From assembly GCA_039193195.1 (NCBI GenBank), contig JBCCWS010000008.1:1-64000 (forward strand): 64,000 nucleotides of DNA. Reading direction: 5' to 3'. This document shows positions 1,241-19,483 of this stretch, one piece after another. The stretch is from Pseudomonadota bacterium (lineage in GTDB: Bacteria; Pseudomonadota; Gammaproteobacteria; Steroidobacterales; JBCBZW01). The notes beneath the pieces are model-generated. The model saw only the letters and a list, made by a program, of their open reading frames with translations. It ran no database searches and was not told the origin of the DNA. The translations under genes were made by a program, and so were the position numbers. Position 1 is the stretch's first letter, and every line of letters begins with the position of its first letter.

Positions 1241-1405
1241 CTAGTGTCCTGAGTTAGAAGTTCGTTGATGAATTCGCACGCGAGTTTTTGTCCCTAAGCG
1301 CGGCGCCACGACGAGCGTGGCAGGTCCCACGGGAGGAGGAGCAACGTGTTCAGGGGCGAAAAGGTGCCGCGAAGTCATCAACGAACTTCTAACTCAGGAC
1401 ACTAG
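1241..1405. mobile_element. MITE-like element with perfect 31-bp terminal inverted repeats
   Basis: Bases 1241-1271 and 1375-1405 are exact reverse complements over 31 bp, starting CTAGTGTCCTGAGTTAGAAG at the outer end. They enclose 103 bp without a transposase. Both ends finish in the palindrome CTAG, which fits insertion at TA, as IS630/Tc1-mariner elements do, or at CTAG. This is what a non-autonomous miniature element looks like. The right end lies exactly on the TAG stop codon of the VWA gene at 1402, so the gene is left intact. RNA read through the element would fold into a long hairpin. Confidence 0.8.
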
Positions 1406-2421
1406 TTGATCAGCCCGACAAAAGTGCCGCCGTTGCGCTCGCACATCGCTCGCATGAGCGTCGCGACGCGCACGCCCGTGACGCGACGGGTGGAGTTCAC
1501 CAAGAACTGGGTGGGAAAGCCCACGGCGTGAATGCGCACGCGTCGCGAACCCTCGGAATCGAGGCGGTTGAGGCGATCGACCGTATCCAGCACGTTCTCC
1601 ATGGAGCCGCCGCTCGCAAACTCGTCACCGAGCACGTAGAGGCTGATGCGCTTGTCGCGGGCGTAGAAGGTGGAGATCGCCTTTTGAATCCCTTCCACTG
1701 GGCTCGAGTTGCTAAAGGGTGCCCAGGTACGCATACGGTCGATCACAGCTTTGCGCCGCCCCGGCGTATCCGGGATCCACTCGCCTGCGTAGCGCGGGAA
1801 CATGTAGTCGCCCATGTCGTTCATCACCTGCATGCCCTTCACCGTGGGGTAGACATCGAGGGTCTCCTCCAGCGTGCGCATCACCTGATCCCAGGCGAAG
1901 TTCTGCATACTGCCGGACGTATCGACGATAAATACTATGTACTCGGAGTCAACAGGTATTCCACCTATCGTATCCTCTAGGTTACGTCGGTAGTTCAGAC
2001 CGATCAGTCGCTCCATCTCCTCGCTGAGATCCTGCCGTGCCACGGCCAAGCGCTCCTCGATAATGGCGGTGACCTCCGATTCGCGCCGTGTCGACTCGAA
2101 CTCCCCCTGCACCTCGGAGAAATCCCCTTGCAGGCGGGCGAGGAGTTCGCGCTGCTCGGAGAGCTGGAGTTCGCGCCCGGAGAGCTCGCGATTGAGTATC
2201 GTGGCCTGTCCGCGAATCTCCTGTAGCTGTGCCTCGAGCGCCTGAATCACCCCGTCCAGCTCCTCACCGCGACGCTCCAGATTGACCGGCTCGAAGAACT
2301 TGGAGATCACTAGCAACAGGATCACGGCACCGAAGCCGCAGCTGATCACGTCGAGGAAGGATAGGCTGACCTGCTCCACTTCGCGCCGCGAGCGGCGCCG
2401 CGCTGAGGGCGTATCGCTCAC
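1402..2421 (-). CDS. VWA protein with TolR/ExbD-like N-terminal helix (second of pair)
   Basis: This 339-residue membrane protein has a short basic N-terminus. One transmembrane helix (about 21-41) carries Asp24 in the context SFLDVISCGFGAVILLLVIS. A long coiled coil (about 46-135) and a von Willebrand A domain from about 160 follow; its MIDAS begins D167-T-S169-G-S171. The FLDV motif at the start of the helix resembles the FIDVM motif of ExbD/TolR, whose Asp carries protons; that functional link is my inference. The stop codon TAG coincides with the border of a MITE-like element. Its start overlaps the upstream VWA gene by 4 bp (ATGA), which suggests translational coupling and equal expression of the pair. 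The substrate is unknown. Confidence 0.85.
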   Translation of the reverse strand: MSDTPSARRRSRREVEQVSLSFLDVISCGFGAVILLLVISKFFEPVNLERRGEELDGVIQALEAQLQEIRGQATILNRELSGRELQLSEQRELLARLQGDFSEVQGEFESTRRESEVTAIIEERLAVARQDLSEEMERLIGLNYRRNLEDTIGGIPVDSEYIVFIVDTSGSMQNFAWDQVMRTLEETLDVYPTVKGMQVMNDMGDYMFPRYAGEWIPDTPGRRKAVIDRMRTWAPFSNSSPVEGIQKAISTFYARDKRISLYVLGDEFASGGSMENVLDTVDRLNRLDSEGSRRVRIHAVGFPTQFLVNSTRRVTGVRVATLMRAMCERNGGTFVGLIN

Positions 2422-3509
2422 GGCCAGTCCCTCGCAGGGCTCATGATCGAGCCAGCACTGAACTGGGCTAGCTGCCAGAAGGCGCTGGAGGCGCGAGGAT
2501 CGCCCTCCATCGGGAACAGGATGATGTTCACGGGCACCTCGTTAGGCAACTGATCGATCGCATCTTCGAAGTGGCGCAAACGCTGGCGGGCACTCACCGT
2601 GGCCCGTCGCGGCGGGTTGCGCCCCTGAGTCGGTAGGCCGTCCGTGATGAGCACTATGTTATCGGGTGGCTCTTCGAACTGCTGGGCGACGATGAAGGCG
2701 TTGTAGAGACTGGTACCCCCGTTAGGGAGCAGAGACTTCAATCCATCTACCACCTCTTCCAAACGGGTGGACTGATCGAGCCCCAGCCAGGTACCGCCTG
2801 TGCCTTGGAGCGTAGGTTGCGCGGTCGTGTTGAACGCGTAGAGCTGGAAGGAAGCACCCTGGGGGAGCTGCGCGATCAACCACTCCACCGTGCGCACGGC
2901 CCGTTGCCACTTCGGAGAGGCCTTTCGATCCTCGTCCTTCATGTTGCGGCGGCGAATCACGTTGACGATGGTCTCATCGAGCATACTGGCGGAGGTGTCC
3001 AGCAGCACGAGCACGCGCTCACCATCGAGACGCAAGCCCGTGAGGTACTGGCGCTGACCCTCGCCTTCGAAGGCCCGCCGAGCGTTACCGAAGTCCGCAC
3101 CTTCGGTCTCCACCCTCAACCGCTCTGCCTCATCGTCCACGGACTGCAGGTCCGAAGTGAGCTGATTGACGTTCTCGCGGCTGGCACGTGTCTTCTGCTC
3201 GAGATCCGCCAGCTCCTCACGTGTCAACTCCAAGCGAGAGATGAGCTGGGCGCTGCGGCCCTGGGTGGCATCGAGCTCATCGACCACGCGAGCTAGCGTG
3301 TTGCGGGCCTCCGCCAACCGCTCCTGCTGCGTATCGAGGGCGAGCTCGAGGCGTGTCACTTCGCTCAGTCGTTCGGCCTCTGCATCGTCCGCGCGTACGC
3401 GAGACTCGTTGTTGATGATCATGAAAAACAGGACCACCGCACCGAACCCGCACGACATGATGTCGAGGAACGACAGGCTGAACGCGTTTAGGCGGCTGCG
3501 CCGTGCCAT
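2418..3509 (-). CDS. VWA protein with TolR/ExbD-like N-terminal helix (first of pair)
   Basis: The protein has 363 residues and the same design as its downstream neighbour. A basic N-terminus leads into a single helix (about 11-32, SLSFLDIMSCGFGAVVLFFM) containing Asp16. A coiled coil (about 40-135) and a VWA domain with MIDAS D171-T-S173-A-S175 follow. The SFLD(V/I)(I/M)SCGFGAV block is shared by both proteins, so they are paralogues that probably form a heterodimer in the membrane. The gene starts 5 bp after the FHA/actin-fold gene and overlaps the second VWA gene by 4 bp. The domain assignments are secure. The comparison of the helix with ExbD/TolR rests on visual motif similarity. Confidence 0.85.
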   Translation of the reverse strand: MARRSRLNAFSLSFLDIMSCGFGAVVLFFMIINNESRVRADDAEAERLSEVTRLELALDTQQERLAEARNTLARVVDELDATQGRSAQLISRLELTREELADLEQKTRASRENVNQLTSDLQSVDDEAERLRVETEGADFGNARRAFEGEGQRQYLTGLRLDGERVLVLLDTSASMLDETIVNVIRRRNMKDEDRKASPKWQRAVRTVEWLIAQLPQGASFQLYAFNTTAQPTLQGTGGTWLGLDQSTRLEEVVDGLKSLLPNGGTSLYNAFIVAQQFEEPPDNIVLITDGLPTQGRNPPRRATVSARQRLRHFEDAIDQLPNEVPVNIILFPMEGDPRASSAFWQLAQFSAGSIMSPARDWP

Positions 3510-3514
3510 GGGGA

Positions 3515-4909
3515 CTAGCTCGTGACGCGCACGAGGTGCAGCTCGTGGCCCGGGGTGCCGACGCGCAGGCGATCACCCATGCGCAGGGTGGCCTGGCCGT
3601 CGATACGATGGCCGTTGAGCCAGGTGCCGTGGGTGCTGTGATCGGTGATCGTGGCGACGCCATCTGCACCGAGCGCCAGGGCGCAGTGCTGGCGTGAAAC
3701 CCCACGCAGCGGTGCGCCCAACTGAATTGCAGGTGCGCCGTCTACACCCACCTGCACGCCGACCATCAAGGGCGTACTCGACAGCGGTTGAGCCAGTCCC
3801 TCGTAGACGACGTGAGTCGGCACCTGATCCGCCGTGGGCGTCAACCTGGGCGGCGCCGACGGCGTCGACGCACCAGCCGTTCCTGCCTGCTGCCAGGCAA
3901 CCTGCGTGAGGTAGGGCACACCCTGCGCCGCGTCGTGCTGACGCAGCGCGTCGCCTAGGGCTAGGGTGCCGTGGGCCACGGCATCAGGCCCCAACACCTG
4001 AACCTGCACACCCGGGAGTTCGCCGAGCAGATCTGCCAAGCCGGGCAGTGATCCCGCACGGTGGGATAGCTGCAGCAGCAGCGCCTCTCCTGGCGTGCTC
4101 GTGGCACTCACCAGTTCGAGCAAGCGCTGATACTCCTGATCAGCCGCTTCGCGCAGGGTCTGTCCATCCACCTGCGCATTGTGTGTGGCTGATGACGTGC
4201 TGATCTCAAGGGACAGCTGCCCCTCATCGCCTATACTTTCCGATAGGTTTCTGAGTTGCTGATACAGCTGCTGTTCGTGTTCAGCAAGGTGCAGCGGATC
4301 GAAGCGGGTACGTTCGACGAAGGCGTTGGCGATCGCCCCCATCCAGCGCTCACGGAGCGCGCGCAGGCCGCTGCCGCGAGTGCTTTCTACGCCCGCACGC
4401 GAGAGCTGTTCGCCCTGCGTAAACCGCGTGATCAGGGCGCGGTGCAGATGCACGTCCAGGTGCATGAGCGTGCGCCCAGGGTCAGTGGCCTGTACGGCGG
4501 CGAGGGCAGCGTCTATCAAGCCCGTGACCGGCAGCCCCGCCTCCCGAGCGATCCCGAGCACCAGCGCGAGCTGTTCGCGGTCGTAAGTACCCGGGACAGC
4601 TAGGAACACCTCCTTCGGCTGATGCGTGCGCAAGGACTCCCAGACCCGCGTCAGGTGCTCGCAGGCCAGATCGGCGGCGGTCTGACCGCTACCCGCCGCA
4701 CTCGCTAGGGGTTCGAGGCTCAGCTCGTCCCAGAAGCGATCGTGAATCGCTCGCGGCTGTAGGCGTGCCTGAGCGTAGGCGTCCTCGCCCACGGACTGCA
4801 CCGCGCCTGCCTCGAGCAGTGCGTAACCGGGGCTCGAAATCAACGAAGCCGCCTGTCCGTCCCAGGCGCAGACGCCTGAGTCGGCAAGCTCCAGTATTAG
4901 CGTGCTCAT
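3515..4909 (-). CDS. Actin/Hsp70-fold protein with C-terminal FHA domain
   Basis: This 464-residue, apparently cytoplasmic protein opens with MSTLILELADSGVCAWDG, which looks like the first phosphate loop of an Hsp70/actin-type fold. A segment near 130-165 (GLIDAALAAVQA, then LMHLDVHLHRALITRF) fits the same family. A C-terminal FHA domain covers roughly 375-460, with GVSRQHCAL and HGTWLNGHRI, the residues that read phosphothreonine. A likely role is to couple the Ser/Thr kinase of the cluster to the TolQ-like and VWA proteins. ATPase activity cannot be judged from sequence alone. The start overlaps the stop of the TolQ-like gene by 4 bp (ATGA). Confidence 0.75.
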   Translation of the reverse strand: MSTLILELADSGVCAWDGQAASLISSPGYALLEAGAVQSVGEDAYAQARLQPRAIHDRFWDELSLEPLASAAGSGQTAADLACEHLTRVWESLRTHQPKEVFLAVPGTYDREQLALVLGIAREAGLPVTGLIDAALAAVQATDPGRTLMHLDVHLHRALITRFTQGEQLSRAGVESTRGSGLRALRERWMGAIANAFVERTRFDPLHLAEHEQQLYQQLRNLSESIGDEGQLSLEISTSSATHNAQVDGQTLREAADQEYQRLLELVSATSTPGEALLLQLSHRAGSLPGLADLLGELPGVQVQVLGPDAVAHGTLALGDALRQHDAAQGVPYLTQVAWQQAGTAGASTPSAPPRLTPTADQVPTHVVYEGLAQPLSSTPLMVGVQVGVDGAPAIQLGAPLRGVSRQHCALALGADGVATITDHSTHGTWLNGHRIDGQATLRMGDRLRVGTPGHELHLVRVTS

Positions 4910-5718
4910 GTGCCCCGCACCTGCAGGCGGGCGATCAGGTGCTCATCGCAGTAGCTCTGCGTATCGAGCACCAGGCGCTCCTGAAATTGCTGCAGCTGGT
5001 AGAGCACGAACATTAGCACGATGCTGAGCAACAGGGCGACGAAGGTGGAGTTGAAGGCAACGCCCAGGTTCGCCGTGACACCGGTGATATCGCCCTCCAC
5101 CGCTTTGTGCGCTTCGCCGAGCGCCGCGCCGATACCGCGCACGGTCCCGATGAAGCCAACGGAGGGGATCGCCCACGCGATGTAGCGAACTAGGGCAAGC
5201 TCCGAGTCGAGGCGATCGGACTCCGCATCGCATACGGAACGCACCGCCGTCGAGGTGTCTTGCACGTTACGCGTCGAGGAAAATCGATGGAGCGCGGTTA
5301 GCAACGCACGCGGCAACAGCATCTGTCGATTCCCGTCGGGTAAGGCTTGCACCGGGCGCGCGTACTCGCGCGTATCGGAGGGCAGGATGCTGAGCCCCTC
5401 GGCGAGGGGGATGAGCTCGCCATCGAGCATGCGCCGCTCGCCGAGCGCCTCCCAACCCTTCAGGCCGATGATAGCCAAAGCCCACAGCAGCAAAATGAAG
5501 CAGGTCTCCTGCTCGAAGTCGCGGATCACGATGTACACGGATCGCTCGGGCACGTAGTTCGGATCCGCTTCGATGCTCTGCGCTTGCTGCTCCATGATGG
5601 CATCGGCCAGCGGGCGCACGGTGGTCACGTACACCGCGTGCACCGCGATGACCACGATCACCAGCGCGGTCAACTGGAAGAAAAACTCGAACCCGTAGCG
5701 TCGGCTGCTGCCTGTCAT
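4906..5718 (-). CDS. MotA/TolQ/ExbB-type proton channel protein
   Basis: This 270-residue inner-membrane protein has hydrophobic segments near 14-33, 73-88, 178-200 and 220-241. The last two match the conserved core of the TolQ/ExbB/MotA family. The third segment contains PSVGFIGTVRGIG with Thr192, and the fourth contains AFNSTFVALLLSIVL with Thr225. These correspond to the polar Thr residues lining the ion path in ExbB/TolQ. The family forms pentamers around two TolR/ExbD helices and uses proton flow to move them. The partners here are probably the two VWA proteins downstream, because no ordinary ExbD/TolR gene is nearby. It lies between a small acidic membrane protein and the FHA protein. 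Confidence 0.85.
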   Translation of the reverse strand: MTGSSRRYGFEFFFQLTALVIVVIAVHAVYVTTVRPLADAIMEQQAQSIEADPNYVPERSVYIVIRDFEQETCFILLLWALAIIGLKGWEALGERRMLDGELIPLAEGLSILPSDTREYARPVQALPDGNRQMLLPRALLTALHRFSSTRNVQDTSTAVRSVCDAESDRLDSELALVRYIAWAIPSVGFIGTVRGIGAALGEAHKAVEGDITGVTANLGVAFNSTFVALLLSIVLMFVLYQLQQFQERLVLDTQSYCDEHLIARLQVRGT

Positions 5719-5735
5719 GCGCGTTAACTCTTGTT

Positions 5736-6131
5736 CTAGATATCAACCGGAAATGCGATGTCCGTATCCACGCGGATCTCTTCGGTGGGCACAAAGACGC
5801 TGTTGTCGCCCTCGGCGGCGCCGTCTTCGCCTGCCGCATCGCCTCCGTCGGTACGCGGACTCGCCGCCTCCGCCGCCTGCTCGGGCGTGATGGCGCCACC
5901 GCCACCGCTATTGCCCAGGTCGATGCGCTGGGGAGACTCCTCCTCCTGCGCGGTCTTCGCGCTGAAATCCCCAGCGCCGAAGTCCTCGTCCTCCGCGTCA
6001 GGCTCATCCTGAGCGCCCTGCGCGAGCACGACGGCTGCCCCCCCGAGCACAGCGACCATGGCAAGCCCGAGCGTGGCTCGACGGATGGACCCAGTCGGCG
6101 GCGTCTCGTCGCGTCCCTCAGATCGGTTCAT
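5736..6131 (-). CDS. Small single-pass protein with acidic tail
   Basis: I do not recognise this 131-residue protein. It has a charged N-terminus, one hydrophobic helix (about 19-38) and a long acidic, Gly/Ala-rich tail that probably lies in the periplasm. It ends in a hydrophobic patch (VDTDIAFPVDI) that looks like a docking motif. A good ribosome site (GGAGGG) precedes the ATG. Its place directly before the TolQ-like gene suggests it belongs to that membrane complex. No catalytic motif is visible. Confidence 0.7.
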   Translation of the reverse strand: MNRSEGRDETPPTGSIRRATLGLAMVAVLGGAAVVLAQGAQDEPDAEDEDFGAGDFSAKTAQEEESPQRIDLGNSGGGGAITPEQAAEAASPRTDGGDAAGEDGAAEGDNSVFVPTEEIRVDTDIAFPVDI

Positions 6132-6145
6132 CAGTCCCTCCTCGC

Positions 6146-8668
6146 CTAGCGATAGTAACGGGCCACGCGGAACCCGAGATCTTCACGCGCCTGGTCATCG
6201 AAGTCTCGATAGGTCAGGCGCAGTTCCGTCGCGCCGCTGGTGAGAAAGCTCGCCCCCCGCACCACGCGCTGGCGACCCAAGTTCGGCCCCAGAGGATCGC
6301 GCAAGGGACCTGGCTCTACGTTGATCCCGAACCAATCGTGAACCCACTCCGCCACGTTACCGCCCAGATCGTAGAAGCCGAGGCGGCCGGGAGGGAACGA
6401 GCCTACGGGCGCACTCACCACATAGGCATCTTCGTAGGTACGAAGCTGCGCGCCGACGATCGAACGCGCTTCCGCCCCCGCGTAGTTGCCCGAGTTTTCC
6501 GCTGGCGGCAGCCGGTCGCCCCAGGGAAACTTCAGGGCGTCGCCGCCAGCGAAACGCGCTAGCCACGCCCACTCAGCCTCCGTGGGCAGACGATAACCCG
6601 TAGTCATGGGTGATGCGGCCACCAGCTGCCCGCCCTGGTCGACGTACGCGGGCGATAGTCCTTCCTGACGGCTCAGCCAGTTGCAGAACGCCGCGGCATC
6701 CTGCCAGCTCACCTGTACTACCGGCTGCTGGGGGTCGCCCAGCCCATTCTGGGCCAGGGCGCCGGAGCGATGGCCGCGACGGAACGCTCCAAACTGGGCG
6801 TTACTGATCTCTCTTGTTGAGACGTAAAACGGGCGCGTGAGTTCGACCTCGTACTGCACTTCATTCGCCAAGCGATCTGGATCGCGCCGCGAGGAACCCA
6901 TGGTGAAGCGCAGCGCACCGTCGCGCTGGCTGGGAGTGGTCTCGGGATCGATGAACTGCAGCGCGACACCGGGTCCCACCACGGGTTGCTTCGGGATTGC
7001 GGCGTAAGCTGCATCGTCCTCGGTGAGCAGGGCCAGACTGACCTGCTGCTCAAAGCCTGCCTGGGGAGTGACCCGAGCGGTGGCAGCAGCGTAACCCGCT
7101 CGACGTGCCTCGATCACCTGCTCCACTGCTGGCAGGCTCACGCGTTGCGCCCCAGTGCCCACCGACCGGCCGTTGACGAATAGCTCCGCATCCGCTGGCT
7201 CCACCTCGATGACCACCGTGCCGGTGATCGCCTGCAGGGACAACTGCAGGCTGCGCTCCTCCCCGCTGGGCACGCTGACCCGTTGCGTCAGGGGCTGGTA
7301 GCCGGCCTTGCTGAGCTGAACCCGGTGGCTGCGATCGGGCTGCAACTCCAACTCGACGGGCGTCTGGCCGGCAAAGCGCCCATCCACGGTCACGAGGGCG
7401 CCGCTCGGCATCGAGCGGAGGTTCACCAAACCGTCGGCGGCGGCCAGGGACACCTCGGTCAGGGTCTGGGGCTCGCCGGCACGCACTTGCAAAAACTGGC
7501 GATGGCGCTTGTGGCCCGGCAGCTTCAGCTCCAGCTGACGCGTGCCGCTGAGCACCTCGACGGTGGCCGGAGTGGTGCCGAGCACTTCGTCGTCCACGCG
7601 AATCTCTGCACCCGGTGGCGAGCTGCTCACGGCCACGTCAGCCCAGTCGGGATCGAGGCTCAAGCGCACGGTCTGCTCGCGATCCAGACCCTCGATGTCC
7701 AGGGTGACCTCGGCCGGCTGATAGCGCGGAGCAGTGGCGGAGAACACCCGCTCGCCTGGCTCCACGGAGAGCACCTGCAGGGGCGTGGCTCCGCGCGCAT
7801 CCCCGTCCACGCTCAGCGACACGCCTTGCGCTGGATCGGTCTCGATCGTGATTCGCCCGGGGAGCTTAGCCATCTCGTAGGTAAACGTCTGAGCCGGCGC
7901 CGCCCCTACCGTGAAGGCCTCCTCCAGCGGGTGGTAGCCCTCACGCTGCGCGGTTACCCGATACTCACCCGATCGCATCAGGCGTCGGTCCGCCAAGGAG
8001 ATCTTCCATAGGCCGCCGGCCACGGCGACCCGCTCCGGAGCGGGCGTGATATCGATCGTGACCGAACGGGCAGTAAACACGAACCATAGGCCCGCCAGGA
8101 ACACTGCTCCCACAAGCCCCGCCGGCACCTGCCAAGGCACACCGCGCGAACGCTCGATCACCGGCGCCGAGCGAGAGAACTCAGCAGGCGCGATTGCGCC
8201 AGTGCTGGCGCTCCGGGTGTTGTCCGGCTGCAAAGTCCTCGCCGAGGGCGCGGCGCCAGGCGCAGTTGACGATGCGATGGCCTGCGACGCCGCCAACGCA
8301 GTGACCTCGCTCTCCTCTGGAGGCAAGGTTCCAGCCGAGGGCTCATCACTCGCCAGGGTGAGGGAACACACGCCCGAAACAGGACACCCAACGAGGTAAG
8401 TCTCCTCGCTTAGTTGCAGCTGATCGCCGGCGCGCAAGGCTGCGCCGCGTGCATCGACGGGTCTGCCGTTCAGCAACACCGCGCTGCCGGCTGTCGGGCG
8501 TAACAGGAACTGCCCGCCGTCAACCTCGGACAAGTCGGCCACCGGTCCTTGGCTACCGCCGATCGTCACGGCGCCCGGCGCCGCGCCACCTAAGGTCACC
8601 GGCAGCGCGTAGGCGGCTTCCTCGCCGCCTCGCCCGATCAACAACCTGCTAGCACTCCCCTCACCCAT
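6146..8668 (-). CDS. FHA-PEGA protein with sulfatase-modifying-factor-like domain
   Basis: This 840-residue protein starts with an FHA-like domain (about 10-100, AVLLNGRPVDARGAALRAGDQ). A Ser/Pro/Ala linker and one membrane helix (about 180-200) follow. Next come four PEGA-type beta repeats (about 270-540; PEGA-like cores such as PPGAEIRVDDEVLGTTP and PSGALVTVDGRFAGQTP). The C-terminal FGE-sulfatase/SUMF fold (about 580-840) has TMGS, GYRLPTEAEWAWLARF, GGNVAEWVHDWFG and RVVRGASF. In true formylglycine-generating enzymes the segment after RGGS carries the catalytic cysteines. Here it has none, so a binding or structural role is more likely. The gene begins 3 bp after the kinase stop, and the topology suggests the PEGA and FGE parts sit outside the inner membrane. 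Confidence 0.85.
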   Translation of the reverse strand: MGEGSASRLLIGRGGEEAAYALPVTLGGAAPGAVTIGGSQGPVADLSEVDGGQFLLRPTAGSAVLLNGRPVDARGAALRAGDQLQLSEETYLVGCPVSGVCSLTLASDEPSAGTLPPEESEVTALAASQAIASSTAPGAAPSARTLQPDNTRSASTGAIAPAEFSRSAPVIERSRGVPWQVPAGLVGAVFLAGLWFVFTARSVTIDITPAPERVAVAGGLWKISLADRRLMRSGEYRVTAQREGYHPLEEAFTVGAAPAQTFTYEMAKLPGRITIETDPAQGVSLSVDGDARGATPLQVLSVEPGERVFSATAPRYQPAEVTLDIEGLDREQTVRLSLDPDWADVAVSSSPPGAEIRVDDEVLGTTPATVEVLSGTRQLELKLPGHKRHRQFLQVRAGEPQTLTEVSLAAADGLVNLRSMPSGALVTVDGRFAGQTPVELELQPDRSHRVQLSKAGYQPLTQRVSVPSGEERSLQLSLQAITGTVVIEVEPADAELFVNGRSVGTGAQRVSLPAVEQVIEARRAGYAAATARVTPQAGFEQQVSLALLTEDDAAYAAIPKQPVVGPGVALQFIDPETTPSQRDGALRFTMGSSRRDPDRLANEVQYEVELTRPFYVSTREISNAQFGAFRRGHRSGALAQNGLGDPQQPVVQVSWQDAAAFCNWLSRQEGLSPAYVDQGGQLVAASPMTTGYRLPTEAEWAWLARFAGGDALKFPWGDRLPPAENSGNYAGAEARSIVGAQLRTYEDAYVVSAPVGSFPPGRLGFYDLGGNVAEWVHDWFGINVEPGPLRDPLGPNLGRQRVVRGASFLTSGATELRLTYRDFDDQAREDLGFRVARYYR

Positions 8669-8671
8669 CGC

Positions 8672-11071
8672 TCAGATCTTCTCCACGCAGCGCACATCGA
8701 TGACCTGGCTCTGCCCGCCCACGGTCACGGTGAATTCCTCACGCACATCGCGGTAGCCGTCGCGGGTACCGATCACCGTGTAGCGACCGGGTCGCAGCTG
8801 CAACTCCGTTTGCTGAAAGCGCCCGAGATCCGCTACGCGCAGGATACGTACGTTGGTCCTGTTGTCTGACGCGATGCGCATGAGCACGGGCTGGCGGACC
8901 TCGTCGATGGCCTGCGCCAGTCGCGCCTGGCGCTCTTCGAGCTGCGGGCCGCGCGGCGTTGTCTGCCGCGCGCTCTCGAGCACCCGCGTCGCGCGCTTGA
9001 GAATCGAGTTGTCCGCGAGGCGCTGCGGGTCGTCGGCATAGAAGGTGAGTTGCTCGTACAGCTCACTCAGACGAGCGGCCACCTCGCGACCCTCGCGGGC
9101 AAAGCGTAGGCTGGGGTCGATCGCCAACGCCTCGTCGTAGACGGCCAGAGCCTCGCGCCAACGTTCCTGGGCCACCAGCTGCTCGGCCTTAGCGCCCAGG
9201 GAGGAGAGCTGCCGACCTCGCGAGTCCACATCCACCTGGGCTAGGGCATCGCGCACGACGCTTGCGTCGGGATCCAAGCGGCCCGCAGCCTCGAACGCGC
9301 GCCTGGCGGCGCTGAAGTCCCCGGCCGAGAGGGCGGCGAAACCCTCGGACATGCGCTGGTCAAAGCTCGACCGATCGAGGCGTAAGCGCAGGTTTGCAAG
9401 CGCCGCGCGCGCGTCTTCCCGGTCGCTGTCGAGGGCCAGCACCTGCTCGTAGGCACCGGCGGCATCGCGCAGGGCGCCGCTGCGCTCTAGCTCCTGAGCC
9501 TCAGTGCTCAGCGCTAGCACCTCGTCGAGTTGCCGCGCCCGAGCTAGTCCGTTGCGCGCATCGCGCAGAGAATCATCGATGGCGAGGGCCTGCTCGAAGG
9601 CGACGATCGACTCGGCCGCCTTGCCGGCTTCATAGGCAGCCCATCCATCCTGCACCCGACTTGCCGCCACTTCCGGCGCCTTGTCTTGGAGGGCCTCAAA
9701 GAGCTCCCGAGCTTGCCCGTAGGCCTCTGCCGAGGCAACAAAATCGTTAGCACGGAAGAGCTCATCGCCACGCACACCCAGGGCAATGGCCTGCGCGTAA
9801 CGCTCCTCGCCCCACTCGACGACGGCACGCGCTTCAAGCGCAGACCGCAGATCTAGCACCTCGTTGACGTCATCGAGCATGGCGTCCCGTTCGCGGCGTA
9901 GGCGCGCAAACTCCATCGGCGCGGCGATACTCGATTCAGCGCGCGACGGCTCACCCCTCTCGGCCACGGACGGCGCCGGGCTGCGTGAGGCGGTGGCGGG
10001 CACGTCGACTCGGGGGGAAAGAAGGCTCAGGACTACTCCGGACAGCACGAGCAGCCAGACCGCGGACACGGCGCCTAGCAATCGCCAGGGCACGCCGCCG
10101 CCGGCCTTGGCGGATTTACCCGCAGCGGCGGCCGTCGCCCCCACGCGCGCGACGCTGCGCACGGGGGTGGGGTCGATGAACTCGGCAGCCTTCACCGCAC
10201 TCAGAGCCAGTGGCGCGCGAGTTGCGTTGAAGTCTGCGCTCGCTACCTGAGCCAGGATGTTGGCCACCAGCTTCATGTCCGCGGGGCGCTTAGACGGGGC
10301 TTCCTGCAGGCATCGCCGAATCAGATCGGAGAGTCCAGCACTGGATCCGACTGCGTCGACCGTGTTGCCCTCCACCGGCGCGCGTCCGAAGGCCAGCTCG
10401 TGCAGCAGTACACCGAACGCGTAGATATCGTCTGCAACGCTCGGCGCTTCGCCAGCCCGTTGTTGCGGACTCATCGCCAGGGGAGAACCGCCGCTGCGCA
10501 GCGCCTGCTCAGGGGGCGCGTCGCGCACGATCGCTGCCACGCCGAAGTCGATCAAAAGAGCGTTGCCCTGGGCATCGATTAGAACGTTGGAGGCCTTGAC
10601 GTCACGATGAACTACCCCGGCGGCGTGCACGGCCGTCAGGGCGGAGGCAAGCTGCAGCACTGGGCGAATCCAGTCCTCACCCGGCGCTCCGCGCAGGCTC
10701 GAGAGCTCGCGGGGGCGCGCTCCGGCAAGGGCGCCAGAACCGCCCCCCCCTTGTCCCAGCACGGCATCCATCACGAGGAACGACTCGCCCTGCGCCTCGA
10801 TCACCTCGAGGGCGCAAGCCACCGCGTTGTGCTGCACTCGGGCCATCGCCGAGCGCTCGTGCTCGAGCAAAGCCCTGCGCTGAGCAGGGTCCGCCGGGTG
10901 CCCGAGGAGCTTGAGGGCGACGGGACGAGCGGCCTGCAGGTCTTCCGCCAGCCATACGGCGGAGCCGTGATGCCCGCCGCCGAGGCGTTGGCGCAGAATG
11001 AACCGATTGCCGAGGCGCTGCCCCTCGTTCAACACGCCAGCCACCGCCGCGCCTCGCTCTGGACCGCGCAA
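8672..11071 (-). CDS. Membrane Ser/Thr protein kinase with TPR-type repeats
   Basis: The protein has 799 residues from the TTG at 11071; GTG codons 9 and 12 codons later are alternative starts. The kinase domain (about 20-275) is complete: glycine loop LGGGHHGSAVW, Lys54 in VALKLL, catalytic HRDVKASN with Asp157, and IDFG with Asp175. A juxtamembrane segment and one helix (about 335-357, WRLLGAVSAVWLLVLSGVVLSLL) follow. Many TPR/coiled-coil helices (about 390-720) and a short PEGA-like end (LRPGRYTVIGTRDGYRDVREEFTV) complete it. The kinase should face the cytoplasm with sensors outside. FHA domains in two neighbours are natural readers of its phosphothreonines. No PP2C phosphatase gene is nearby. 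Confidence 0.9.
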   Translation of the reverse strand: MRGPERGAAVAGVLNEGQRLGNRFILRQRLGGGHHGSAVWLAEDLQAARPVALKLLGHPADPAQRRALLEHERSAMARVQHNAVACALEVIEAQGESFLVMDAVLGQGGGGSGALAGARPRELSSLRGAPGEDWIRPVLQLASALTAVHAAGVVHRDVKASNVLIDAQGNALLIDFGVAAIVRDAPPEQALRSGGSPLAMSPQQRAGEAPSVADDIYAFGVLLHELAFGRAPVEGNTVDAVGSSAGLSDLIRRCLQEAPSKRPADMKLVANILAQVASADFNATRAPLALSAVKAAEFIDPTPVRSVARVGATAAAAGKSAKAGGGVPWRLLGAVSAVWLLVLSGVVLSLLSPRVDVPATASRSPAPSVAERGEPSRAESSIAAPMEFARLRRERDAMLDDVNEVLDLRSALEARAVVEWGEERYAQAIALGVRGDELFRANDFVASAEAYGQARELFEALQDKAPEVAASRVQDGWAAYEAGKAAESIVAFEQALAIDDSLRDARNGLARARQLDEVLALSTEAQELERSGALRDAAGAYEQVLALDSDREDARAALANLRLRLDRSSFDQRMSEGFAALSAGDFSAARRAFEAAGRLDPDASVVRDALAQVDVDSRGRQLSSLGAKAEQLVAQERWREALAVYDEALAIDPSLRFAREGREVAARLSELYEQLTFYADDPQRLADNSILKRATRVLESARQTTPRGPQLEERQARLAQAIDEVRQPVLMRIASDNRTNVRILRVADLGRFQQTELQLRPGRYTVIGTRDGYRDVREEFTVTVGGQSQVIDVRCVEKI

Positions 11072-11090
11072 CAGCCCTCGCTACGCGGGT

Positions 11091-12383
11091 TCAACGCGGT
11101 GCGCTTTCTCCGGTGCCCTCACCGGAAGCCGCAGAACCTGCCCCATCCCCGCCGCTGCCCGCGGTGCTGAAGGTCTCGCCGGTCTCCAGCGAGTAGATGT
11201 CGCGCAAGATCGTGCGCCACTCATCGAACTGGCTATCCAACGAGCCCTGCAGGGTGACGGTCTGCCCTTCGATCTCAACCACCATGGGCTCAACCTCGGC
11301 CTCGAAGGAACCGTTTAGCTCCTCCAACGCAGCCGCGTGCAGGCGCGACTGGCGCTTCTTGTCGATACCCACCTTGAGCGCGGCGATGCCGCCGGTGATC
11401 GCCGTCCATTCGGCAATGCTGCCTGCCGTGCTGTCCGTATTGGCGAACAGGCCGCCCGCGATGGCTGCGCCGCCAATGAGCTTGTGCGCGAGGGCCTGAC
11501 GCTGGATCTCGCGTAGGGTGATCACCTCATCGTAGGTGTATTTGCGCCATTCGTCGTAGGGCACGTCCATCTCCTGGGCAAAGGTCTGGAAGTGCTGGTC
11601 GAGCGTGTCGAAGAAGAGGTACTCGCGCTCGCGGATACGCCGCATGCGCGCCACCATCGGGTCCGAGTACGCGGGCAACCGTCGGGCTTTGTACAGGCCG
11701 TCGGTCTCGGCGAGAAAGTCACCGAAGGCCTCGGGGGAGAGATCGCCGGCGAAGCGCAGTTCGGCCACCTGGCGAATCGCCACGCGCTGCTCCGGCGTGA
11801 TCTGCTCCATCGCCTGCGCCAGGTCGTTGGCGATGATGTTGTAGAGGTCCTGGAAGGGATCCAAGCGGGATTGATTCAGGGGCAATGAGTCGCGATAGGA
11901 CAATTGCCCCGTTAGGTGATCGTAGTCTTTTTCGAACCACAGTCGGCCCGTCGCGTCGCGCGCTTCGATGCTCAGGCTGAGGCGCTCGCCGTCCGAGTGG
12001 ACAATGGCGCCGGAGACGGTCAGGTCAACGCTGTTCGAAGCCCGCGGGATCACCCGCACGGCACCCCAGTGGTTGGTCTGCTGCAGGGTCTCGCTCAGCA
12101 CGTAGGGGATGTAGCGCGCCTCCGCGTTGCGCACACTTTCAGATATCGAGACCGCGTTTTTCTTCTGCTTCGCCTTTTCCTCGGGCGTTGGCAAGCCGGG
12201 ATCGAAGACCGTAACGCCCACATCGAGCAGCTGCTCCTCGGGCAACTCAACCTCGGCCTGCTGGGCAGCCACCGCGCCGGTCTGAATCACCGTCGTGCTC
12301 ACGCAGCCGGCGCCGCCAAAGGCCGTGGCGACCATCGCCACCAGGGCGAGCGTCGGGACCTGTGAATCGCTCCAGCGCACCAT
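11091..12383 (-). CDS. Outer-envelope lipoprotein, unknown function
   Basis: The protein has 430 residues from the ATG at 12383, preceded by a strong GAGGAG ribosome site 5 nt away; a frame continues 8 codons further upstream without such a site. The signal peptide ends in the lipobox FGGAGC with Cys27. The body has no catalytic motif I recognise. It contains a segment resembling lipoproteins of the CsgG/curli-accessory style (ISESVRNAEARYIPYVLSETL, then SGAIVHSDGERLSLSIEARD), a helical middle and a hydrophobic stretch (LIGGAAIAGGLF). It lies immediately upstream of the kinase, in the same direction, and is probably its periplasmic or outer-membrane partner. Confidence 0.75.
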   Translation of the reverse strand: MVRWSDSQVPTLALVAMVATAFGGAGCVSTTVIQTGAVAAQQAEVELPEEQLLDVGVTVFDPGLPTPEEKAKQKKNAVSISESVRNAEARYIPYVLSETLQQTNHWGAVRVIPRASNSVDLTVSGAIVHSDGERLSLSIEARDATGRLWFEKDYDHLTGQLSYRDSLPLNQSRLDPFQDLYNIIANDLAQAMEQITPEQRVAIRQVAELRFAGDLSPEAFGDFLAETDGLYKARRLPAYSDPMVARMRRIREREYLFFDTLDQHFQTFAQEMDVPYDEWRKYTYDEVITLREIQRQALAHKLIGGAAIAGGLFANTDSTAGSIAEWTAITGGIAALKVGIDKKRQSRLHAAALEELNGSFEAEVEPMVVEIEGQTVTLQGSLDSQFDEWRTILRDIYSLETGETFSTAGSGGDGAGSAASGEGTGESAPR

Positions 12384-12464
12384 TCGTCTCCTCGTCTGTT
12401 CGCGCACGTAGGGCCGCGCCTATCCGCGCGCACCCGCCGTACCAATCTGCCTGGGGCGGCAGCC

Positions 12465-14918
12465 TTATCCGCCGGAAATGCTTTCCTTGTAGCGGCGGTA
12501 CTCATCCCACAGGCGCTCGCGCAGCTCCGGATCCGACTCTCGCATAGCCGCTTCACGAATCTGTCTTGCCACCACATCGTCGCCCTGGGGATCGGGAATA
12601 TCCTCAGGCACGTTAACGCGCGTGTTGGCGCTCGGCGCTCTTACGCCACCCTGACCAGTGCCGCCGCCGTTGATTACCGCGGGCACCGAAGAGGGGCCCT
12701 GCTGAGTCGACGCGGTGGCACCAGCGCCACCGCCGGCAGCGCCGCTCTGGGGACCACCCGAATCACCTTCACCGCCACCACCGCCGGCACTACCTATCAC
12801 GTCGGCGTAGGCCACCCGCCCCGCCGCTGACGCCGCTTCGCGTGCGTCTGCCAGCTCGCCGTCGTAGTTGGCAAGGCTCCCCTGGAGCTCTTCCTCCAGC
12901 TCAGCGACGCGCTCCTCGACGGTCTGACCGCCGCCGATACCTAAATCATCTTGCGCCCAGTCAGCCCCCTGGCCACCTGCGCCAGCGGTGCTGCCCTCGC
13001 CCACATCGGGGATCGCGCCGCCTGCGGTGGCGCCACCGGCGCCGCTCGGCGAACTCTGCCCTTGGCTTCCCGGTTGGCCACCGCTGGTCTGCGCGCCAGG
13101 CTGTCCACCGCCACCGGACTGCCCGGACGGCGGCTGCCCAGTGGGGGCCCCACCCGGCTGGCCGCCTGGATTTCGTCGCGGGAGGGGAAGCGGCAGCGAC
13201 GCGCCGCCGGTGCGCGAGGGAATCGGCACCGCTACCACTACGCGCGGCGGCGGTCGCTGGTAACCCACGTCGTCGCTGCGCCCGCCCGGCTCACCAGCCT
13301 CGCCCGCGACGCGCGCGCCGGCTGCCTCTCGAGCTGCCTCCGCCATCTGTGCGCCCGCGCGCTCTAGGGCTTCAGCCGCCCGCTCAAAGTCCTCGGGATC
13401 GCCTGCCTCCGGCGCGCCGCCACCGGCCGGCTCGCCGGCCTCGCTTTGGCCGGGCTCGCCCCCGCCCGCAGTCTGCGCCGCTGGCTCGCCCTGCTGCTCT
13501 GAGCCGGCGGGCGCGGTGCTACTAGCGCCAGCCGCGGCTGCGGCGCTGCTGGACGCCGCTTCATCCGCAGCGGCCTGCGCCTCACGATTGGCCTCCGCCA
13601 AGGCTTCGCCAGCAGCGCGCATCTGTTCCGCGGCGCGCTGGAGCTCGATCGACGCCTGGTACAGGCGCTCGGCGTCATTCGTTTGGGCGACATCGGCGGA
13701 CGCGGACTGTTGCCGCTGTGCGGATGCGTCGCCACCCGCCGCGCTGGGTGAGGACGAAGACGAAGCCTGCTCGCCACCACCGGCACTCTGATTCTGTCGT
13801 GTCGCCGCGTCGCTAGCCGCATCGGAGGCCGATGCAACCGCTTCGCGGGCGGCGTCCACCGCCTGCTGGGCAGCTTGCTGCGCCGCGTCTGCCTGGGCAG
13901 CGGCGGCGGCTTGCGCGGCGCTTGATGAGGAGGACGCGGAGGACGCCGATGCGGCGCTGGAGGATGAGGTGGACGCGGTGGCCCCTGAGGAGCTGTCCGA
14001 CGCGCGCGACTGGCTGGAGGAGGCGCTCGCGCTGGCAGAAGCCGAACTCGCGCTGCTGCTGCTCGGCGAGCTGGCGTTGTTGGCCTGCGATTCGCTGGCG
14101 GCCTGCTCCTCGGCGAACAGATCCTCCAGCTCCGTTTCGCTCGGGTCGGTCGGTTCGGACTCGCTGGCTGAATCGGTCGCCTCGCTCGCCTCCGCAAGCG
14201 CCTCGTCCAGGGACTCCTGCGCCTCTTCTACGGCCTCGGCGGCCGCATCCGCCGCGGCCACGGCAGCTTCGGCAGCGTTGCTCGACTCGGTCGGATCAGC
14301 GAACAGATCCGGATCGTCGTTGCCCTGGGGACCCGCCTCCGCGTTGGGATCCGGCGGCAGGGCCGACTCTTCGCCGCCGCCGAGGCTCTCGCCCGCAGGA
14401 TTGGAAGACGCATCAGCACTCGCGCTCGCTTCCCCGCTTTGCCCCTGCGACTCGGAGGACGACGCTGACGACGATGAGGCCGTCTCACCGCCACCCGAGC
14501 TGGGCTTGCTGGGCAAGCCAGGCGTGGGCTGCGCAGCCGGGCCCGAATTGGGGTTGGGCAACCCGCCCTGTGGCAGGCTCGCCGTGCTCACGGGCGTTTG
14601 CCCAGGAATAGAGGGCGAGGCGCTCGGCGAACTGGAGGGCGAACTGGAGCTAGACGACGAGGACGAGGAGGAAGAGCTGCTGCTGGAGGAGGAGCTGGAG
14701 GCCGTCCGCTGCTGCTGGCGTTGCTGTTGCTGGCGGCTGCTCGAGCGCGATTGGCTCTGCTGGCCGGCCGGCGGCGTCGACGGCGCACCGCCCGAGGAGG
14801 ACGGTGAACTCGTCGGGGGTGGGGACGATGTCTGCTGCTGCTGATCGTTGCAGGCGGCGCCCGTGAGCAGCGCCCCGGAGGCAGCAGCGGCGAGGATGAG
14901 CTGTTTGGCGGTACGCAT
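12465..14918 (-). CDS. Ser/Ala/Gln-rich low-complexity lipoprotein
   Basis: I start this 817-residue protein at the ATG at 14918, because it gives a lipoprotein signal peptide (ILAAAASGALLTGAAC, Cys23) and has GGGGA upstream. A frame extends 74 codons further but encodes no signal peptide. The mature protein is extraordinarily biased: Gln clusters, 20 consecutive Ser at 74-93, then long Ser/Ala/Glu and Gly/Gln/Pro segments. Two Ala-rich helical segments (for example AAEAAVAAADAAAEAVEEAQ) also occur. Only the C-terminal 50 residues (PEDIPDPQGDDVVARQIREA to the KESISGG end) look like an ordinary conserved domain. It appears to be the first gene of the minus-strand cluster. A flexible spacer from membrane to peptidoglycan or beyond is a reasonable guess. 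Confidence 0.75.
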   Translation of the reverse strand: MRTAKQLILAAAASGALLTGAACNDQQQQTSSPPPTSSPSSSGGAPSTPPAGQQSQSRSSSRQQQQRQQQRTASSSSSSSSSSSSSSSSSSSSPSSSPSASPSIPGQTPVSTASLPQGGLPNPNSGPAAQPTPGLPSKPSSGGGETASSSSASSSESQGQSGEASASADASSNPAGESLGGGEESALPPDPNAEAGPQGNDDPDLFADPTESSNAAEAAVAAADAAAEAVEEAQESLDEALAEASEATDSASESEPTDPSETELEDLFAEEQAASESQANNASSPSSSSASSASASASASSSQSRASDSSSGATASTSSSSAASASSASSSSSAAQAAAAAQADAAQQAAQQAVDAAREAVASASDAASDAATRQNQSAGGGEQASSSSSPSAAGGDASAQRQQSASADVAQTNDAERLYQASIELQRAAEQMRAAGEALAEANREAQAAADEAASSSAAAAAGASSTAPAGSEQQGEPAAQTAGGGEPGQSEAGEPAGGGAPEAGDPEDFERAAEALERAGAQMAEAAREAAGARVAGEAGEPGGRSDDVGYQRPPPRVVVAVPIPSRTGGASLPLPLPRRNPGGQPGGAPTGQPPSGQSGGGGQPGAQTSGGQPGSQGQSSPSGAGGATAGGAIPDVGEGSTAGAGGQGADWAQDDLGIGGGQTVEERVAELEEELQGSLANYDGELADAREAASAAGRVAYADVIGSAGGGGGEGDSGGPQSGAAGGGAGATASTQQGPSSVPAVINGGGTGQGGVRAPSANTRVNVPEDIPDPQGDDVVARQIREAAMRESDPELRERLWDEYRRYKESISGG
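14640..14699 (-). repeat. Polyserine tract coding for 20 consecutive Ser
   Basis: Residues 74-93 of the lipoprotein are all Ser. The codons are a mixture of TCC, AGC, TCG, TCT and AGT, so the tract is not a simple triplet expansion and appears to be kept at the protein level. Confidence 0.85.
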
Positions 14919-15191: not shown

Positions 15192-15803
15192 ATGATTCGC
15201 AAGATCTGGCGCGTTCGAAGGGTCGCCGCCGCACTCGCCTGCGGCACACTGAGCATGCTGGCAGCGAGCTGTGCCCGCAACATCGAGGTGCCCGCGAGCG
15301 TCCCCACGCCCCTGATGGCTGCTCTGCCCGTCACCATCGGCGTCTACTACGATGAGGAGTTCAGCAACTACCTCTACATCGAGAAACTGCTCTACGGACC
15401 TGAGATCAACGTGGAGCTCGGGGAGGCGAACGTCAATATGTTCGATCGCATGGTCGATTCCGTCTTCAGCGCCCACGTGCCCCTCGACGAGCCGCGCGGC
15501 GAGGGCGTTGATGCGATCATCGCCCCGTCGGTAGATGAGTACGCATTTTTGACGCCGGACCAGTCCGGGGTCGATTTCTACTCCGTGTCCATCCGCTACA
15601 AGGTGGACCTACTGTCGCCATCAGGTGACGTAATCGACAGCTGGAAAGTGGACAGCTACGGACGCACACGGGCGACGGGACTCGTTGGCACCAACTCGCT
15701 GTCCCAAGCGAACGAAGAGGCGTTGCGGGATGCCGCTGCGGTCCTGGCCTTAGATCTGCAGAATCGGCCGTCGGTCGTCAGCCTTAGCGGCGAGGGTTCA
15801 TGA
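15192..15803 (+). CDS. Small lipoprotein, first of a pair
   Basis: This 203-residue protein has a lipoprotein signal peptide ending in LAASC (Cys27). The mature part contains VTIGVYYDEEFSNYLYIEKL and a beta-rich segment (SVSIRYKVDLLSPSGDVIDSWKVDSYG), followed by an Ala-rich helix near the end. This resembles proteins of the YajG/DUF4136 style that bind in the outer membrane, but I cannot assign a family. It diverges from the Ser-rich lipoprotein gene across a 273-bp gap with no clear promoter motif. It overlaps the next lipoprotein gene by 4 bp (ATGA). Confidence 0.75.
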   Translation: MIRKIWRVRRVAAALACGTLSMLAASCARNIEVPASVPTPLMAALPVTIGVYYDEEFSNYLYIEKLLYGPEINVELGEANVNMFDRMVDSVFSAHVPLDEPRGEGVDAIIAPSVDEYAFLTPDQSGVDFYSVSIRYKVDLLSPSGDVIDSWKVDSYGRTRATGLVGTNSLSQANEEALRDAAAVLALDLQNRPSVVSLSGEGS

Positions 15804-16495
15804 TGCGTAAACACCCCCAAAGCGCTTTCCTGCGTAGCGCCCTGGCGCTGCTGCCCATGCTCGCCGTCACTCTCTCTCAGAGCGGCTGCGTCACGGCTCG
15901 GGTCGAGGAGGCGCGCCAGTCCCTAAGTAGCGGCGGCATGAGTTCCGGCGATGCGGTAGTTCTGCTCACGCGCCGCTTCAACAATCAACGCGAAGCCGAA
16001 CAGGGCTTCACCAACTGCGTGGCAAACGCCCTGCTGACCGGCAACCCAGGCATGGAACTGCGCACGGAGCAAGAGTTCCTGGACGGCCTGTTTCCCTGGT
16101 TCGAACCGCGCTACGCGCCTACCACTGTTGAAGACCTCCCAGAGCTGTTGGCACAGCCGGGCGTGACCGAGCGCCTCGAAGACACGGGCGTCCGCTACAT
16201 CGTATGGTTGGACGGTGAGACCGAAACGGTCGACGGCGGCGGCAGCATCACCTGCGAGATCGGTGCTGGAGTGGGCTGTTTGGGCTTTCAGTGGTGGGAG
16301 AACGACAGCAACTACGAGGCCTCGATCTGGGACCTCGAGACTTCGACGGACGCCGGTGTCATGACCAGCTCTGCTCGCGGAACGTCTTACCTGCCGGCGA
16401 TCGTTGTGCCGATTCCCATCATCGCCCGCACGCGCGTGACGGCATGTAAGGGCCTGGCCGATCGACTGGTGGAGTTTCTCGCCCTCGAAGGTTGA
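15800..16495 (+). CDS. Small lipoprotein, second of a pair
   Basis: The protein has 231 residues with a signal peptide and lipobox SQSGC (Cys30). The mature protein has a helical N-terminal part and a beta-rich C-terminal part (RYIVWLDGETETVDGGGSITCEIGAGVGCLGFQWWENDSNYEASIWDLET) with two Cys that may form a disulfide. No family was recognised. It is translationally coupled to the preceding lipoprotein, so the two likely act together. Its stop is one base from the stop of the convergent TonB-domain gene, and no terminator separates them. Confidence 0.75.
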   Translation: MMRKHPQSAFLRSALALLPMLAVTLSQSGCVTARVEEARQSLSSGGMSSGDAVVLLTRRFNNQREAEQGFTNCVANALLTGNPGMELRTEQEFLDGLFPWFEPRYAPTTVEDLPELLAQPGVTERLEDTGVRYIVWLDGETETVDGGGSITCEIGAGVGCLGFQWWENDSNYEASIWDLETSTDAGVMTSSARGTSYLPAIVVPIPIIARTRVTACKGLADRLVEFLALEG

Positions 16496-16496
16496 G

Positions 16497-17930: not shown

Positions 17931-17934
17931 GCGA

Positions 17935-19383: not shown

Positions 19384-19483
19384 GCTCACCTCTGACCGGA
19401 TCCGGTGGATTTAGTTTTCCACTTCAGGCGGCGGGACTGACGACAGTAACGGCCGTCCCGACGGCAGGCAAGGAAGGCGGTGG

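Follow-up and report, generated by a model that had tools for sequence, protein, structure and literature searches.

A TolQ-like channel and a pair of TPH-VWA proteins in a conserved gammaproteobacterial gene set: a probable proton-driven trans-envelope machine

Results

A channel gene and two VWA genes

The window analysed here is a stretch of 64,000 nucleotides at the start of contig JBCCWS010000008.1 (assembly GCA_039193195.1), from a gammaproteobacterium. At 1402-14918 it carries a run of minus-strand genes for a TolQ-like channel (Q), two von Willebrand factor A (VWA) proteins (A and B) and several putative partners. The sequence-only reading of this DNA had described such a run, and its genes and coordinates hold: the genes are confirmed as real, and neighbours overlap or abut, A and B by 4 bases at 2418-2421 and Q and the adjoining gene H at 4906-4909. 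Genetically, the channel cannot be separated from the two VWA proteins, each of which has an N-terminal membrane helix with an invariant Asp, and all three lie within a set of about 12 genes. The three core genes are as follows.

4906-5718, minus strand: Q, a MotA/TolQ/ExbB-type channel with Thr192, Thr225 and Pro185 (Pfam MotA_ExbB 1.5e-13, 51.1 bits against a cut-off of 22.9)
2418-3509, minus strand: A, TPH-VWA protein 1, with an Asp16 helix, a coil and a VWA domain that has a metal ion-dependent adhesion site (MIDAS) (Pfam VWA_2, 32.5 bits, cut-off 27)
1402-2421, minus strand: B, TPH-VWA protein 2, with an Asp24 helix, a coil and a MIDAS VWA domain (VWA match under the Pfam cut-off)

Co-occurrence was assessed in two overlapping samples, 369 genomes of the class and 329 of the phylum (G000 is in both; here and below, L003 is a second copy in the source genome, and other L and G numbers are the loci and genomes of relatives). 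In the class sample, the VWA protein was found at E<=1e-10 in 31/369 genomes and the channel at E<=1e-78 in exactly those 31; eight further genomes had distant channels only (E 1.5e-29 to 8e-16). In the phylum sample, the VWA protein was found at E<=1e-6 in 15/329 genomes, 14 after G677, whose match covers coil residues 40-159 only, was dropped. The channel was found at E<=1e-15 in those 14 and in G476, where it is cut by a contig end and which was also left out. The samples together give 44 distinct genomes with both genes, 12 of them from one family of the phylum outside the class. The sequence-only reading had called for a search of this kind, with an eye to VWA genes that regularly lack the channel; VWA alone was found in 0 of the 44. 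By coordinates, channel and VWA genes share one contig in 42/44 genomes, the exceptions being G213 and G312, and in G312 the channel is on a separate short contig of 4.4 kb.

Invariant residues of the channel and the VWA pair

Q matches the solved TolQ (8odt) weakly by phmmer (E 0.044), and TolQ is the only solved relative found in this way; Thr192 and Thr225 align to chain positions 145 and 178. These two pore threonines, which had been singled out from the sequence at the outset, are invariant in 105/105 channels, as are Pro185, Asn223 and Arg194. His27, in the first hydrophobic segment of Q, is invariant in 79/79 channels.

A and B each have a single strong hydrophobic segment by averaged hydropathy, located at the N-terminus after a net-positive start. 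Because of this lone stretch and the charge before it, the coil and the VWA domain of both proteins are expected in the periplasm. The helix of A is SFLDIMSCGFGAV, with Asp16, and that of B is SFLDVISCGFGAV, with Asp24. Asp16 is invariant in 109/109 first VWA proteins; 80 of these loci were picked up in a scan whose two patterns included one with the Asp, and Asp16 is likewise present in 29/29 A proteins from outside that scan. The MIDAS residues of A are kept as well (D171 in 108/109; S173, S175 and D290 each in 109/109; Thr266 in 99/109). In B, which was not used as a scan query, Asp24 and the MIDAS residues D167, S169, S171 and D266 are invariant in 107/107 proteins. Loci L090-L095 are excluded from the counts of 105, 109 and 107.

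A and B thus share with ExbD and TolR a single N-terminal helix with an invariant Asp. Neither matches the ExbD/TolR family PF02472 at E<=1, nor does anything else in the window cluster, the window being what was scanned with Pfam.

Spacing of the helix and the VWA domain

The distance from the helix Asp to the MIDAS Asp is 152.5 residues in A (standard deviation 5.2) and 141.7 in B (standard deviation 2.3). The coil spacings of A and B co-vary in phylogenetic contrasts (90 contrasts; r=0.63, leave-one-out 0.45-0.65, 0/10,000 permutations). Among the control pairs, the A coil gives r 0.04 against the B VWA domain and 0.11 against the channel loop; the B coil gives 0.17, 0.03 and -0.06 against the A VWA domain, the B VWA domain and the channel loop; and the A VWA domain gives 0.10 against the B VWA domain and 0.08 against the channel loop. 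The co-varying spacings suggest, as evidence and not as proof, a parallel A/B coiled coil such as would be expected of a two-stranded axle.

The first reading had taken the VWA proteins to be the ExbD/TolR-type partners of the channel, and this is supported by their strict co-occurrence, by the invariant Asp and Thr residues, by the co-varying spacings and by the absence of a PF02472 match in the window cluster. Alternatively, Q might be a TolQ-like scaffold that has the VWA proteins as its anchored partners or its sensors, without proton-driven rotation. VWA is commonly a binding domain, and the homology of the helices to ExbD is unproven. However, the last three of the observations just listed argue against a scaffold of this kind, with the Asp invariant in both helices and the Thr residues invariant as a pair, and we consider it improbable.

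The conserved gene set

Q, A and B belong to a conserved set of about 12 genes in many gammaproteobacteria. Beyond these three, the set has an Hsp70-fold protein, a TPR-PEGA protein, a Cys-less PEGA-FGE protein, four lipoprotein-like proteins and an M48 peptidase. In the window, the other genes are these.

3515-4909, minus strand: H, an Hsp70-type ATPase-domain fold with a C-terminal FHA domain (AlphaFold2, Foldseek; Pfam FHA 3.7e-11; SRxH signature)
5736-6131, minus strand: a 131-aa small protein between G and Q, without a Pfam match, its membership of the set unproven
6146-8668, minus strand: G, with an FHA-like N-terminus, a transmembrane helix, PEGA repeats and a Cys-less FGE-like domain (Pfam PEGA 9.9e-44, FGE 6e-39)
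8672-11071, minus strand: T, a Ser/Thr kinase with a transmembrane helix (~338-348), TPRs and a PEGA-like C-terminus (Pkinase 1.1e-24; hydropathy; Pfam TPR)
11091-12407, minus strand: C, a lipoprotein with a TolB-N/LptE-like domain and a long helical hairpin (AlphaFold2, Foldseek)
12465-14918, minus strand: S, a Ser-rich lipoprotein with a conserved acidic C-terminal peptide (ATG at 14918; frame open to 15140)
15192-15803, plus strand: D1, a lipoprotein-like protein, divergent from S in the window
15800-16495, plus strand: D2, a small lipoprotein-like protein
16497-17930, minus strand: TP, a TPR protein with a TonB C-terminal domain (Pfam TPR_12, TonB_C)
17935-19389, minus strand: M, an M48 metallopeptidase (Pfam 6.3e-35)

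Conservation of the set was followed in the best 80 of 249 relatives from a contig scan with two first-VWA proteins. The order S-C-T-G-Q-H-A-B is exact in 50 of the 53 loci with sufficient flank (the exceptions are L040, L032 and L074), and both A and B are present in all 53. Of 103 loci with Q, A and B, 89 also have H. The commonest layout, TP S C T G Q H A B D1 D2 M, accounts for 30 of 116 loci. Position 14918, at which the sequence-only reading ended the set, is indeed the ATG of S, but that boundary is too short: 15192-19389 adds four families that travel with the set in most relatives. Outside the kinase clade described below, among loci with sufficient flank, TP is present in 41/42 (upstream of S), D1 in 57/59, D2 in 52/56 and M48 in 35/51. 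These counts set aside 17/80 loci; unfiltered, D1 is found in 59, D2 in 56, M48 in 39 and TP in 29 of 80. D1 and D2 are divergent from S in the window, as is D1 in five relatives. Lipobox-like motifs (simple pattern, whole open frames) occur in 51/78 S, 65/84 C, 61/74 D1 and 48/67 D2 proteins. Beyond the core genes, the flanks of these loci contained no relative of the 131-aa protein at 5736-6131, in a search that did not separately cover the G-Q gap. Two loci, L030 and L043, are in metagenome-assembled genomes titled Klebsiella pneumoniae; the loci group with those of uncultured and marine gammaproteobacteria, and the names may be wrong.

We also considered a Zorya-like anti-phage motor. Proton-motor defence systems exist, ZorAB among them, but ZorA and ZorB had no match among ten window proteins compared with PADLOC, where the matches were kinase families and two marginal ones, and gene order is kept across the clade. 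A defence role is scarcely credible.

Accessory proteins

The AlphaFold2 model of H has a mean predicted local distance difference test (pLDDT) score of 86.4, and Foldseek aligns it to DnaK (E 7.2e-18), giving an Hsp70 ATPase fold in the N-terminal part of 3515-4909 that the first reading had missed. Pfam calls HSP70 in 1/76 H relatives, and Asp10 is kept in 74/76. Hsp70 chaperones carry a GGGT phosphate loop; the corresponding loop is not Gly-rich in the 76 H proteins, and in the window the ATPase-type fold is followed by FHA and not by a substrate-binding domain. Because this second phosphate loop is not Gly-rich, H may not be an active ATPase. Some matches of the FHA profile to H (residues 16-63 and 287-314) are not in its FHA domain, and these we disregarded.

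For C, the AlphaFold2 model (pLDDT 76.7) has its best Foldseek matches, both weak, with LptE (E 2.1e-3) and TolB (E 2.9e-3). The system resembles TolQRAB-Pal and ExbBD-TonB in its Q family, its N-terminal Asp helix and its lipoproteins, as well as in the TolB-N-like domain of C and the TonB C-terminal domain of TP; it differs in that the dimeric partner ends in VWA and has no PF02472 match. It could accordingly serve a Tol-Pal-like envelope maintenance, using force to release or concentrate an outer-membrane lipoprotein at the septum. TolQ as the only, weak, solved relative of Q, the fold of C, the several lipoprotein-like parts and an OmpA-like gene next to B all speak for such a role. However, relatives of the OmpA-like gene (148-1005, downstream of B on the same strand) are in the flanks of 2/80 loci only, and it was excluded from the set; furthermore, additional channel, ExbD/TolR, TolA and TonB genes are present in other parts of the source genome, including a separate channel-TolR-TolA cluster. 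Therefore the set described here is not the sole Tol or Ton motor of this genome. We regard a Tol-Pal-like role as possible but doubtful.

In G, PEGA and FGE are both called in 61/61 scanned proteins. A Cys is present in the catalytic segment of 0/63 (the motif-extractable segments out of 94 proteins), and the two catalytic Cys of FGE are thus lacking; human FGE has a Cys at a position where the G family profile has none. Among NCBIfam models GldK/PorK is the best match to G (1e-23, 84 bits, far under the cut-off of 350). Such matches bring to mind the type IX secretion system (T9SS) and gliding machinery (GldKLMN, PorKLMN), and a rotating VWA axle might drive FGE-fold hubs arranged as a ring or a track, and in this way move or export surface proteins. 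According to passages of PMC12421860, PorK is a repurposed FGE fold that lacks the two Cys and bridges to the PorLM proton motor, and GldJ and GldK make up a track; PMC12635249 reports outer-membrane proteins that are bound to a moving track. The Cys-less FGE-fold partner is shared with our system, as is the proton motor that we infer here. Nonetheless, in a comparison with the PDB, catalytic FGEs outscore PorK (1.8e-31 versus 5.7e-26); PorN, Sov and GldM have no match among the window proteins scanned with Pfam or NCBIfam; and G is predicted to be anchored in the inner membrane, whereas PorK is in a ring at the outer membrane. The VWA axle is a further difference, and so is the distribution, which covers Gammaproteobacteria plus a single family elsewhere in the phylum. 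A T9SS-like machine is unlikely.

Myxococcus AglRQS-Glt (PMC3169522) also combines a TolQ-type motor with envelope proteins, and the FHA domain of window H weakly matches the GltG model (NCBIfam 2.4e-6, far under the cut-off). It differs in that AglQ and AglS are ExbD/TolR by Pfam in a table of that article.

Kinase and FHA domains

The kinase of window T is intact (K54, D157, N162 and D175, which are the Lys, the HRD Asp, the Asn and the DFG Asp), as is the SRxH signature of the FHA domain of window H. Two FHA proteins had been expected in the window. That at 3515-4909 is called by Pfam, but in the N-terminus of G an FHA-like character emerges only when profiles are compared with each other (90.7%, E 1.3e-6 with eight clade members; 0.06% and 0.11% for the controls); on single G proteins the FHA profile is weak, with 2 matches that do not include the window protein. 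The length of G was tried as a marker of this N-terminus and rejected: 5/73 stand out cleanly, but 17/96 reach 780 aa when whole open frames are used. Length is unreliable because it depends on the choice of start.

Pfam calls Pkinase in 14/64 T proteins and FHA in 6/76 H proteins. With our own profiles, the kinase domain is found in 19 of the 93 loci with T, and all four catalytic residues are kept in seven of the 19 (the window, L014, L048, L069, L130, L132 and L137). SRxH is present in H in 7/7 loci with an intact kinase and in 1/12 with a decayed one (L065); L127, a fragment from which T is absent, also has it. The association gives a Fisher p of 9.6e-6 on 61 loci with kinship ignored. On a tree from which 11 near-identical of 102 rows were omitted, and on which the kinase-bearing loci L018 and L068 are not placed, the kinase domain (17/81 rows) needs one change, inside a 24-row set that includes the window (Shimodaira-Hasegawa-like approximate likelihood ratio test 99), and its intactness needs four. 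Our reading is that a kinase switch was probably added once and then decayed repeatedly while the motor stayed. Long-branch warnings apply to L003, L099 and L137, and the position of L003 is hence unsure. An extra Ser/Thr kinase gene lies downstream of the cluster in L048 (14435-15967; Pkinase 1.4e-30) and L069 (13261-14649), both of which carry the kinase-T fusion.

A channel search of the source genome gave one further relative at E<=0.001, on C9. This second copy (L003) has C, a kinase-less TPR-PEGA protein, a PEGA-FGE protein without the FHA-like part, Q, both VWA proteins and, in addition, a small protein that carries the S C-terminal peptide. An M48 gene lies beside C (L003:1863-2705); because this gene, together with that of the window, had gone into the M48 profile, it was checked with Pfam (1.7e-26). 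H is absent from L003. Since L003 is without them, the core needs no kinase, FHA or Hsp70-type domain.

Kinase control, which the sequence-only reading had proposed, is plausible in the window's lineage, where the kinase motifs and the FHA signature of the window's own copy are intact, but it is not general: the domain is in 19/93 loci, 17 of them on the tree in one clade, and the second copy has neither kinase nor FHA. The same evidence bears on the idea that this is a kinase-run signalling system with the channel as its output. An intact kinase and FHA in part of the window's clade, and the sister TolQ loci with FHA and PP2C described below, favour it; the confinement of the domain to a minority of loci, with seven intact, and its absence from the other copy in the same genome make it improbable.

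Sister systems, which occur in some genomes with distant channels only, have a different layout. L090:7078-14460 and L092:3125-7750 encode an FHA protein, a TolQ-like channel, a PP2C phosphatase, proteins that combine a trypsin-like with an FHA domain, and one lone TPH-VWA protein with the helix SALDLFASALGAF or SALDLFASAMGAF (consensus SALDLFASA(L/M)GAF). In L091, L093 and L094, the channel has adjacent FHA-profile matches, and L093 also has PP2C beside the channel. Because of such sister loci with FHA or PP2C, phospho-signalling can be said to accompany motors of this kind more than once. At L104:1-1294 and L105:3248-7902, TolQ-like genes lie beside proteins with an N-terminal helix that, by eye, lacks the Asp; L105 also encodes a protein of 539 aa whose helix has an Asp, and this might be a mixed pair.

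Discussion

The core of this system has been predicted before. Passages of PMC12204202 (Mol Biol Evol, June 2025) report that TPH-vWA genes tightly co-occur with tolQ-like genes, mostly as heterologous pairs and without tolR or exbD, and that AlphaFold 3 models put the TPH-VWA helices in a TolQ-like pentamer with the Asp pair in the Thr ring. The window cluster shows the features of such a TPH-vWA/TolQ motor, namely co-occurrence, a VWA gene pair and no ExbD/TolR match. The prediction covers the main idea of the sequence-only reading, which had known of no described system with this set; for the channel and the TPH-VWA pair that no longer stands, although the rest of the set was not found described. 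Those passages state no function for TPH-vWA beyond a proposed force role, and the figure uses Idiomarina homologues. The main text does not contain the word "kinase", and no PEGA, FGE or Hsp70 partner is mentioned in the passages on the family, though figure 4c may show further neighbours. Our literature search (open-licence PMC, judged by title and abstract) found no paper that describes the whole set or the kinase switch.

What might the complete set do? We propose that it is probably a proton-driven trans-envelope machine with a VWA pair as its rotor, and a motor with a VWA axle is likely. Besides the co-occurrence, the invariant residues and the spacings, the kept gene order, the reported AlphaFold 3 models and the Cys-less FGE domain of G speak for it; the last is a trait of PorK, a hub that is linked to a proton motor. 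Five Q subunits would enclose one A helix and one B helix, and protons would pass via Asp16/Asp24 and the ring of Thr192 and Thr225, turning the A/B pair. The pair would form a parallel coiled-coil axle of ~140-155 residues from Asp to MIDAS; were this largely helical, it would hold the two metal-binding heads far out in the periplasm. There the VWA heads, together with the inner-membrane-anchored G (a hub of PEGA and a dead FGE domain) and T (TPR-PEGA), could pull on the lipoproteins S, C, D1 and D2 or step along them. M48 and TP may act in assembly or turnover, and H could be a scaffold or a gate on the cytoplasmic side. In the window's clade only, the kinase fused to T and the FHA domain on H would make a phospho-switch. 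Our best guess is that proton flow is turned into force on outer-membrane components, with maintenance, protein export or surface movement as options.

Several observations weigh against this proposal. We infer function from architecture. In hhalign profile-profile comparisons with the six ExbD/TolR-type proteins of the genome, the A and B helices gave nothing significant, and control transmembrane helices did equally well. Two control correlations are not flat: the A coil against the A VWA domain gives a contrast r of 0.22 (p 0.046, which passes 0.05; raw r 0.76), and the B VWA domain against the channel loop gives r -0.48 (p 0.015, leave-one-out up to 0.07). G213 has its channel on a different contig, apart from the rest of the set. 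Near-cluster counts for the kinase-bearing loci, with flank length uncontrolled, are low (D1 8/19, D2 3/19, TP 3/19, M48 1/19, this one being the window), and since so few of these loci carry them, the tie of D1, D2, TP and M48 to the window's own group is weaker. Finally, once relatedness is counted, two usable pairs on supported branches remain for the kinase-FHA association, which is then not significant (sign test p 0.5).

A more far-reaching proposal is that the set is a distinct class of machine, in which a proton-driven rotor with a VWA-heterodimer axle acts on the outer membrane by way of a dead FGE hub and lipoproteins to move or export surface components, as a functional counterpart of T9SS and gliding in Gammaproteobacteria, and to which one lineage adds a kinase-FHA switch via an Hsp70-fold scaffold. 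We offer this tentatively and hold it to be rather unlikely.

Rotors with a 5:2 stoichiometry that are driven by ions power flagella, TonB import, Tol-Pal and T9SS. If our proposal is correct, it adds to these an ion-driven rotor with two metal-binding VWA heads as its output. The order of the set is kept across many gammaproteobacteria, including, by record titles, the cultured Haliea salexigens, Chromatocurvus halotolerans, Parahaliea mediterranea and Microbulbifer. Of the two copies in the source genome, only that in the window has kinase and FHA, and together they would provide a built-in comparison of a regulated with an unregulated machine.

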